A stretch of DNA of 43,624 bases from a bacterium (GTDB lineage Bacteria > BMS3Abin14). The stretch spans positions 1-43,624 of the forward strand of contig CP070719.1 in assembly GCA_020350725.1 (NCBI GenBank), read 5' to 3'. The notes under the pieces are model-generated. The model was not told the DNA's origin, did no database searches, and was given only the letters and a program-made list of their open reading frames with translations. Shown here piece after piece: positions 5,520-26,662 of this stretch (its first letter is position 1; every line of letters starts with the position of its first letter). Both the position numbers and the translations under genes were made by a program.

Positions 5520-6638
5520 TTGGCACAGACAGAACCTCGGACCAAGCAGGACAGGATCTTCGAGCCCAAGTGGCTCGCGTGGGAGATCACCGGCAGGTGT
5601 AACCTGAACTGCATCCACTGTCGCTCTTCATCCTCTATGGGTTCGGACGAAGGAGATTTTACCCTTCAGGAGGCCAAGGCCCTCATCGACGAGATCACCT
5701 CATTCGCAAAGCCCGTTGTTGTCCTGTCCGGAGGAGAACCGCTCCTCCGCAGGGATGTGTTCGAGATAGCCTCGTACGGGACGGGGAAAGGCCTGAGGAT
5801 GGCTCTCGCCACCAACGGCGACCTCGTCAACGACGACATCTGCCGCAACATCAAGGAGTCGGGAATCCGGATCGTCAGCCTGAGCCTCGATGGGTCCACC
5901 GCCGAGATCCACGATGACTTTCGCAAACAGCCCGGGGCATTCGAAGCCACTCTCCGGGCGGCTTCGTTCTTCCGCAAACACGGCATCGAGTTTCTCATCA
6001 ACTCCTCCTTCACGAAGCGAAACCAGGACGATATCCCCAACGTCTACCGGCTGGCCAAGAAGATCGGGGCCGTCGCCTGGTATATGTTCATGATCGTGCC
6101 CATGGGGCGGGGCGAGGACCTCATGGCCGAACTCATCTCCAAAGAGGACTATGAGGACATCCTCAAGTGGCATTTCGAGATGGAGCTTCAGGAGAAGGAG
6201 ATGCTGGTCCGACCCACCTGCGCTCCCCACTACTACAGGATCGTCCAGCAGGAGGCCAAGGCGAAGGGTATCGATTTTCAGCGTCGCAACCTCAAATTCG
6301 GCACGGGGGGGGCGAAAGGATGCATCGCCGCCCAGTCCATCGCCTTCATCGGAAGCAAGGGAGAGGTTCAACCCTGCAGCTACTTTCCCCAGGCGGCCGG
6401 AAACGTCAAAGAGCAGAGTTTCAGGGAGATCTGGGAAAACTCGAAGATCTTTCAGGATATGCGCAGCTTCAAGGATTACAAAGGACGGTGCGGCTCATGC
6501 GAATACCTCGGTGTCTGCGGAGGTTGTCGGGCCAGGGCCTTTGCCGTTTCGGACGATTATATGGAAGAGGAGCCCTTCTGCAGCCACATTCCGAGGAAGG
6601 TCCTCCGTGAGATGGAAAAGGAGCGGAACAACCCATGA
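5520..6638 (+). CDS. ahbD: Radical SAM/SPASM protein, AhbD-like (Fe-coproporphyrin III decarboxylase)
   Basis: A 372-residue radical SAM protein. The N-terminal CNLNCIHC motif binds the SAM cluster; [14 protein letters not shown] is the GGE region. The C-terminal half has the SPASM cysteines in [35 protein letters not shown] and EEPFCSHIP. The wording throughout ([17 protein letters not shown]-x-EEE-PxC) is that of the AhbD/NirJ group; AhbD removes the two propionate carboxyls of Fe-coproporphyrin III to give heme b. The start is TTG 5520 with GGGAGG nine bases upstream, rather than TTG 5487, which has no good ribosome site. Its stop overlaps hemE (ATGA). Placement beside hemE, hemH and hemY supports a heme role; AhbC or another SPASM maturase is the alternative. 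Confidence 0.75.
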
Positions 6639-12284: not shown

Positions 12285-12567
12285 CATCGGGAATGGCGGC
12301 CCCGGGAGAAAATAGCGGAGCGGCCCTGTAAGCCGAGTTCTGTATCCACCGCAGCCTTGGCGACGATGGACGGTGGCCATTCATCTTGGACCGACGTTGC
12401 CGACGGCCTCCAGCGGCCTACCCGGGAGCAATCGGACGGGCCGCCCTCGAACGCTCCCCTATTTGGCCTTGCACCGGATGGGGTTTGCCTAGCTACCGCC
12501 GTCACCGGCGGCACTGGTGAGCTCTTACCTCACCCTTTCACCCTTACCCGCCTGCGCCCCTCGACCC

Positions 12568-12600
12568 TTCGATTTTACTCAGGGTGGTGAGCTTGTCGAA
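12568..12600 (-). repeat. Palindromic repeat unit inside rnpB P12
   Basis: A 33-base imperfect palindrome bounded by TTCGA and TCGAA with inner arms CTCA/TGAG. On the rnpB strand it reads TTCGACAAGCTCACC, then ACCCTGAGTAAAATCGAA. The adjoining 12600-12610 adds a second hairpin, GAGCTTGT with ACAAGCTC. It lies at the tip of P12, between the arms at 12550-12560 and 12611-12621. The TTCGACAAGCTCA...TGAG...TCGAA pattern resembles dispersed intergenic palindromes of other bacterial genomes. Confidence 0.6.
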
Positions 12601-12709
12601 CCACAAGCTCGGGGCAACGGCGGGCGGTCTGCTCTCTGTGGCACTTTCCCTGGGGTCACCCCCGGTCCGCGTTACGGACCATCCTGCCCTGCGGTGCTCG
12701 GACTTTCCT

Positions 12710-12776
12710 CCCTTCGACCTTGCTCAGGGCAGGCTCCCCACTTTTGAGGAAGCCCGGTCCCGAGCTTGTCGAGGGG
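12710..12776 (-). repeat. Palindromic repeat-like extension of rnpB P3
   Basis: The P3 position holds a long hairpin. Its arms on the rnpB strand are CCCCTCGACAAGCTCGGGAC and, after an apical loop, CCTGAGCAAGGTCGAAGGG. The motif CTCGACAAGCTC is shared with the P12 insert (TTCGACAAGCTC), which suggests the same repeat family in both helices. Confidence 0.6.
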
Positions 12777-12803
12777 CGGCCACCCGGGCCACTCCGCAAG
12801 GAC

Positions 12804-12910: not shown

Positions 12911-13471
12911 CTAAAGAGACACGGGACCCTCGGCATCGATGGCCATGTTGGCCAAACGGTCCGCCTCTTTGTTCTCCTCCCTGGGAATGTGGCTGTAGGT
13001 AACGTCCTTCAGGTTCGACGCCATCCTCTGGGCCCGCATGAAGAGGTCTTTGAGTCGGGGATTTTTAACCCGATATTCCCCCGTCATCTGCTTGACCAGC
13101 AATTCGCTGTCGGAGCATATTCTGACCCTGACCGCGCCCGCTTTAACGGCCTCTTCCAGGCCAAAAAGGAGGGCCTGATACTCGGCAACGTTGTTGGTTG
13201 CCTCACCCAGGTACTCCCCCCTTCTGACGGTTGTCCACCCGCGGCCCATGACCAGGAATCCCGCTCCGGCAGGGCCCGGGTTCCCTCTGGCCGCACCGTC
13301 GACCATCACCACGACCTCTTCCTCCGGGGAGGCGGTCAACCCGGCGGCCTCCTTGAGGATCTCCGACAGGCTTTCCCGGGTCAGCCCCGGGAACCTGGAG
13401 ATCGTCCTCCCGACATCGAGGCTTCCGGCCAGCTCCAGGAGGACGCTCGTCGGGTCAATTTTCCTCGACAT
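12911..13471 (-). CDS. RNase HI-family protein with N-terminal extension
   Basis: A 186-residue protein. Its last 135 residues form an RNase HI fold with the four acidic catalytic residues visible: D58 in VVVMVDGAARGNPGPAG, Glu in TNNVAEYQALLFGL, Asp in ICSDSELLVKQM, and Asp in ENKEADRLANMAID. It should cleave RNA in RNA-DNA hybrids. The first 50 residues are not a classical hybrid-binding domain and I do not recognise them. It overlaps the zinc-ribbon gene by 17 bases and follows it in the transcript, a pairing frequent in deltaproteobacteria. Confidence 0.85.
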   Translation of the reverse strand: MSRKIDPTSVLLELAGSLDVGRTISRFPGLTRESLSEILKEAAGLTASPEEEVVVMVDGAARGNPGPAGAGFLVMGRGWTTVRRGEYLGEATNNVAEYQALLFGLEEAVKAGAVRVRICSDSELLVKQMTGEYRVKNPRLKDLFMRAQRMASNLKDVTYSHIPREENKEADRLANMAIDAEGPVSL

Positions 13472-26072: not shown

Positions 26073-26662
26073 CAGCTTCCGATCCTCCCCTTGGTGGAGG
26101 GCACGCCCTGCACCCTGGGATCGACGGAGGTGGCCTGATCGAGCGCCTTGGCGAAGGCCTTGAAAACAGCCTCTGCGATGTGGTGACGATTGCGGCCGTG
26201 ATCCACCCGGATGTGAAGGTTCGCCCCGGCATTGTTGCAGAAGGCCTGGAAGAACTCCGGGACCAGCTCCATGGAAAATCCCCCGACGATCCCGTCGAGG
26301 GACGGGATGGAAAAAGCCAGGTAGGGCCGTCCACCTATGTCGATGGCGACCATTGCCAGGGCCTCATCCATGGGCAGGACGGCCCACCCGTAGCGCCTGA
26401 TACCCGCCGCCTCCCCCAGGGATTCCTTCACCGCCTGGCCCAGACATATGCCCACATCCTCCACCGTGTGGTGGGCGTCGACCTCCAGATCCCCCGTTGC
26501 CCGGACCGAGAGGTCAAACAGCCCGTGCCGCGTGAACAGGTCCAGCATGTGGTCGAGGAAGGGCACTCCCGTCTCAATGTCCGCCTGCCCACTGCCGTCG
26601 AGCCCCAGGGTCAGCCCGATGCTGGTCTCTTTCGTCTCCCTTTGGATGTCCGATCGCCTCAT
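26072..26662 (-). CDS. hisB: Imidazoleglycerol-phosphate dehydratase
   Basis: A 196-residue monofunctional IGPD for the sixth histidine step. It shows [20 protein letters not shown], the metal-binding [11 protein letters not shown] motif and, later, the second site [19 protein letters not shown]. No histidinol phosphatase domain is fused. The start at 26662 (MRRSDIQ) has AAGGAGAG four bases upstream and is preferred to an ATG 13 codons earlier that lies within hisC. It overlaps hisH by one base. Confidence 0.96.

Follow-up and report, generated by a model that had tools for sequence, protein, structure and literature searches.

The review PMC2229807, citing Ogata et al. 2002, places Rickettsia palindromic elements (RPE), 105 to 146 bp in size, in both the RNase P RNA and the tmRNA of rickettsiae. 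REP elements carry a short tag before a hairpin and form GTAG and CGTC families; in the part of their catalogue drawn on here, insertions are described in protein genes, not in RNase P RNA (PMC3733652). Candidate phyla radiation genomes have diverged RNase P RNAs whose helices are extended, as described in the part of a report drawn on here (PMC8172020). RNase P RNA is essential and usually single copy, and the wide length variation of its peripheral helices is poorly explained. In heterocyst-forming cyanobacteria, short tandemly repeated repetitive (STRR) sequences were reportedly described in rnpB by Vioque in 1997. We report an rnpB gene in a window of 43,624 bp (the whole stretch of DNA that was analyzed) whose P3 and P12 extensions are, with a probability of about 0.88, copies of a dispersed palindromic family, element A. 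This figure covers the origin of the extensions from repeats, not the enzyme involved.

The gene lies on the minus strand at 12313 to 12795 and matches the class A RNase P RNA model Rfam RF00010 end to end (model positions 1 to 367 of 367) with 296.8 bits, well above the gathering threshold of 100 bits. The full covariance-model match and the conserved core place it among bacterial class A RNAs and bear out the sequence-only reading, which had taken the core of the gene to be intact. At 483 nt, it exceeds the Rfam consensus by about 115 nt in the covariance-model alignment, and the surplus lies mainly in P3 and P12 and slightly in P19. An RNase HI-like reading frame, named by eye, is located at 12911 to 13471, with rnpB downstream of it. 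Both P3 (12710 to 12776) and P12 are enlarged and share a motif, as had been noticed from the sequence: the window has exactly two copies of TCGACAAGCTC, one per helix (12762 to 12772 in P3 and 12589 to 12599 in P12). The pattern CCCTGAGN5TCGAAGGG also has two exact sites, at 12710 to 12729 and 12565 to 12584; no third site was found in the window at up to two mismatches, a looseness at which 0.43 would be expected. Relative to shuffled sequences, folding gave z scores of −4.1 for P3 and −5.3 for P12, and none of 200 shuffles folded as well.

P3 contains one imperfect palindrome twice, in opposite orientations and head to head around 29 nt. The 5′ element, CCCCTCGACAAGCTCGGG (12759 to 12776, minus strand), was identified by sequence reading as element A in inverted orientation, and P3 of a different bacterium (L095) contains its exact reverse complement, CCCGAGCTTGTCGAGGGG. 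The 3′ element, CCCTGAGCAAGGTCGAAGGG (12710 to 12729, minus strand), is element A in direct orientation, as determined from pattern matches and sequence reading, and continues without a gap into the invariant GAGGAAAGTCCG. Between them, the 29-nt middle (12730 to 12758, minus strand), assigned from folding and sequence, forms a distal hairpin and closes with CCTG, the tag that precedes many dispersed copies of element A. The likeness of P3 to dispersed copies is confined to its two elements of 18 to 20 nt, and the middle had no match among the loci searched.

The tip of P12 is a composite palindromic element of 60 nt (12556 to 12615, minus strand) that forms a three-way junction on the native base stem. 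It consists of an outer stem (GCCCC/GGGGC), a first hairpin with a perfect 8-bp stem (GAGCTTGT/ACAAGCTC), and a second hairpin (CCCTGAG..TCGAAGGG). Of the earlier description of P12, the enlargement and the palindromic character stand, and the simple hairpin is replaced by this junction unit. Within it lie a direct unit, CCCTGAGTAAAATCGAAGGG (12565 to 12584, minus strand), recognized by pattern matches and sequence reading, and an inner inverted unit, TGGTTCGACAAGCTCACCA (12585 to 12603, minus strand), whose pattern TGGTTCGN4GCTCACCA has 12 copies in the phylum versus 0 in the control.

Siblings of the P12 tip are dispersed in other genomes and in its own. The copy at L263 in G002, a genome of a related genus, is identical at 51 of 60 positions, ungapped, with the same length and architecture and both outer arms; it lies outside rnpB, being on contig 49 of G002, where rnpB is on contig 41. 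L269 is identical at 49 of 60 positions, again ungapped, of equal length and architecture, and with both outer arms, and L265 (G007) matches with a longer second loop. The sibling in the same genome as the gene (L267, G000:C1:1696338-1696387) shares 87% identity over 47 nt and is without the right outer arm. BLAST E values of the P12 tip against these dispersed siblings, when scaled to the DNA of the phylum, lie between 1e-9 and 7e-5. In the outer stem of the four complete composites, two pairs are altered on both sides and are thus compensatory. The rnpB copy is of full length and colinear with the copies outside rnpB, and this match of P12 is the strongest and decisive evidence for a repeat origin. 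An arrangement in which CCCCGAGCTTGTCGAGGGG was split by a second element within rnpB, making P12 a nested insertion, was considered and dropped, as complete two-armed composites exist elsewhere.

Element A itself is widespread. TTCGACAAGCTCA has 29 copies in the genome of 2,777,163 bases, versus 0 for a reversed-pattern control, and CCCTGAGN5TCGAAGGG has nine exact copies genome-wide, two of them in rnpB. The number expected in rnpB is 0.0016 over all DNA, or 0.013 over non-coding DNA only, for which a share of 12% was assumed (P from 1e-6 to 8e-5). Across the phylum, which is a small one, related forms of element A gave 65 matches versus 1 in the control and occur in 11 of 12 genomes, a sample drawn from one family with no second genome of genus g1 in it. 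These counts, above control and at unrelated places, make element A a dispersed palindromic family; together with the P12 siblings, they supply the copies elsewhere in the genome that had been anticipated from the sequence alone. A copy comprises an arm of 3 to 5 bp, the core TGAGC-N2-4-(G)TCGA(A), and the opposite arm, and copies often form head-to-head pairs or 60-nt three-way-junction composites. Head-to-head dimers are present at genome positions 758180 and 1530656 as well as in P3 and P12. At 35 loci with other element copies, Rfam scans placed none of the copies inside a known RNA; one cspA-type match and two tRNAs lay near the scanned copies but outside them. The flanks of many copies (L002 to L029 and L036 to L043) contain the degenerate simple repeats gtccagagtccagagg, gggggcgagggggagataggg, gtgattcgtgattagtgattcgg, and tccaaaatccaaaatcc.

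Nine relatives, which belong to the same family but to other genera, have a different P3, P12, and P19, either short or with other palindromes. The tips are short and plain in the rnpB genes of G003 and G009. P3 of G004 contains CCTGTCCCGAGCTTGTCGAGGGA, a variant of element A, a similar variant is found in P19 of G010, and P19 of G002 contains TCGACAGGCTCAGGGCAAGCC. A second palindrome family, element B, is GCCTTGGCGAAGG with variable arms and occupies P3 and P12 of G010, P12 and P19 of G005, and P12 of both G007 and G008. It has 48 matches in 12 genomes, five of which are in rnpB, where 0.007 to 0.06 would be expected; G005 and G010 belong to the same genus and have a common P12 sequence, and the rnpB events of element B therefore number four at most. 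A further GCCTTGGCGAAGG at window positions 26145 to 26157, in an apparent coding sequence, is probably a chance match. In the gene described here, P19 is the third helix affected besides P3 and P12, and its palindrome differs from element A: the hairpin (12346 to 12369, minus strand) holds element B in degraded and inverted form, with two mismatches to GCCTTGGCGAAGG. Because P3, P12, and P19 of the relatives differ and carry variants of element A or dispersed element B, two or more families of elements have repeatedly rewritten these helices. The alignment with the nine relatives contradicts an ancient, conserved form of P3 and P12. With copies present genome-wide and a form that is not ancestral in the relatives, the earlier proposal of a dispersed palindromic element as the source of both enlargements is supported.

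Beyond the phylum, 84,980 species genomes were scanned for GTCGARGG joined to GAGGAAAGTCCG at a distance of at most three bases. The scan returned 50 places, with a fuller element in P3 at about 23 of them by eye and at 18 by a strict pattern. Element A is fused to the 3′ strand of P3 in about 20 rnpB genes, from Patescibacteria, Acidobacteria, Margulisbacteria and their relatives, Chloroflexi, and Sphingomonadales; many other matches were Burkholderiaceae-type P3 stems or lay outside rnpB, and the short pattern alone is no proof of the element. Four rnpB genes of other phyla (L120, L121, L137, and L139) have element-like palindromes both in P3 and in P12 or P19; in L139 the second site is P12, and in L120 it is P19. 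Some of the matches in Acidobacteria may be convergent, since the ordinary P3 stem in some members (L093 and L108) already resembles TTCGAC/GTCGAGGGG. Nine of 89 sampled Patescibacteria genomes (G082, G084, G118, G124, and others) had no class A RNase P RNA match. An order-wide sample of Patescibacteria, from which the genome chosen for its match was excluded and L217 (G121), just outside the model match, was set aside, gave 88 matches, three of them in rnpB (in two genomes). This excess in rnpB is clear against all DNA and weak against non-coding DNA only (P from 0.01 to 0.07). The occurrences in several phyla suggest that the P3 and P12 arms are recurrent, tolerated homes for dispersed repeats. 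More tentatively, the tips of P3, P12, and P19 may, in bacteria generally, be sites where palindromic mobile elements land or replace existing sequence, with one cross-phylum family entering repeatedly and much of the length variation arising from elements and not from gradual growth, a proposal that we regard as a distinct possibility.

The identity of the repeat, its dispersal, the absence of these P3 and P12 forms from the relatives, and the common structure are established directly. In the scheme that we propose, element A would have spread through the genome and the phylum and come to rest in rnpB, with a single entire composite in P12 and two copies head to head in P3, and the same helices of the relatives, along with P19, would hold other copies or element B. 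A self-folding copy landing in the tip of a hairpin would only lengthen a peripheral helix; because the copy folds back on itself, the catalytic core would remain intact and the insertion would be tolerated. We infer in this way both the mobility of element A and its neutrality for RNase P.

As for REP elements, a REP-associated tyrosine (Y1/HUH) transposase (RAYT) would act on element A in trans, and spread by an enzyme of this type is plausible, with odds just short of even. A short tag before a hairpin is likewise a feature of IS200/IS605 ends. YYTG, a tag defined after inspection of the copies, directly precedes 9 of 20 element A copies outside rnpB and 5 of 19 copies in P3 (by eye), including that of the gene described here; the looser YYTR precedes 8 of the 19 P3 copies. 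Copies of element B are often preceded by CTTGT or CTTGC. The tags GTAG and CGTC are absent before these hairpins, where YYTG is found instead. The genome contains two REP-type tyrosine transposase genes, which match NF047646 with 82.4 bits (cut-off, 80) and with 65.6 bits (below the cut-off). At one of them (L147, genome 1162000-1170500), the composite A element CCCTTCGACAGGCTCCGTTCGACAAGCTCACGG, at positions 5573 to 5600 of the locus, lies 37 bp before the transposase reading frame; composites of this type have roughly 20 copies in the genome. The other gene is without a nearby A element, and none was found within a few hundred bases of the six transposase loci scanned in relatives. With an A element near one of the two loci in this genome and near none of the six in relatives, the linkage is weak and a RAYT is no more than a candidate enzyme. 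The relative G008 has a gene for a REP-type tyrosine transposase about 2.1 kb from rnpB (L149, G008:C1:1979500-1988500).

A repeat origin would also hold if older tips of P3 and P12 had been replaced through template switching or gene conversion between palindromes at replication, a different mechanism that we consider possible but on balance doubtful. Every one of the palindromes occupies a hairpin tip, with no recognizable native loop sequence next to it and no evident target-site duplication. Element arms and native stems blend, since the arms end in GGG or GGAGG as native P3 does. The comparison covers relatives from other genera, and replacement of an old tip fits it as well as insertion does. 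Because no remains of the native tips were seen, template switching onto hairpin tips accounts for the data almost as well as RAYT-mediated spread. However, P12, like the dispersed copies, comprises the entire composite including an outer stem of its own, and YYTG is kept before many copies, including that of P3, which fits a defined mobile unit better.

Selection of strong GC-rich hairpins with a few favored loops in P3, P12, and P19, with only a coincidental likeness to the repeats, is very unlikely. Such convergence would account for the similar P3 stems without a clear element in Acidobacteria (L093 and L108) and for the single match of element B in an apparent coding sequence (window position 26145), but exact matches are far above controls, and the P12 match outside rnpB extends over 60 nt at equal length with its unpaired joints conserved. 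The full-length siblings of P12 largely contradict it, as joint bases that do not pair would have to converge too. Less probable still is an origin in the reverse direction, with P3 and P12 long extended in this lineage and the dispersed repeats derived from rnpB. P3, P12, and P19 are somewhat variable in all members of the phylum, as this would allow, yet the nine relatives from other genera are without this P3 and P12 and eight of the nine genomes nevertheless have dispersed repeats; moreover, the P12 siblings of G002 and G007 lie outside rnpB in genomes whose own P12 is different.

If these helices are repeatedly rebuilt from dispersed hairpins, the variation in RNase P RNA would be partly a footprint of mobile DNA. 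The length of rnpB would then be a poor phylogenetic character in P3, P12, and P19, and the gene would document, as a natural archive, the activity of very small palindromic elements whose movement otherwise tends to escape notice. It is also a clean test bed for the choice of hairpin tips by such elements. A search of the main text of open-access papers did not find the element sequences.

The analogy with Rickettsia drawn in the sequence-only reading is closer than it supposed, since RPE have been reported in RNase P RNA itself (PMC2229807). Like RPE, which occur in other conserved genes as well and are presumed to be tolerated, element A is a dispersed palindromic repeat inside RNase P RNA. 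It is set apart by size and description: RPE are specific to Rickettsia and more than 100 bp long, whereas the elements described here measure 20 to 60 nt, occupy three helices, and include one family in the rnpB genes of several phyla. The RNAs of the candidate phyla radiation resemble this one in their long or altered peripheral helices, extensions that are not attributed to repeats in the portion of the report considered here (PMC8172020). In common with REP elements and BIMEs, element A has imperfect palindromes of 20 to 40 nt, head-to-head dimers, and a genome with REP-type tyrosine transposases; unlike them, it has YYTG in place of GTAG or CGTC, a copy number below the typical one, and weak linkage to the transposase. 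STRR sequences are similar in being genome-wide repeats inside rnpB and different in being tandem heptamers, not palindromes. Palindromic elements in RNase P RNA are thus already known, and what appears to be new here is that other families are involved, that three helices are occupied, and that the occupation recurs across phyla.
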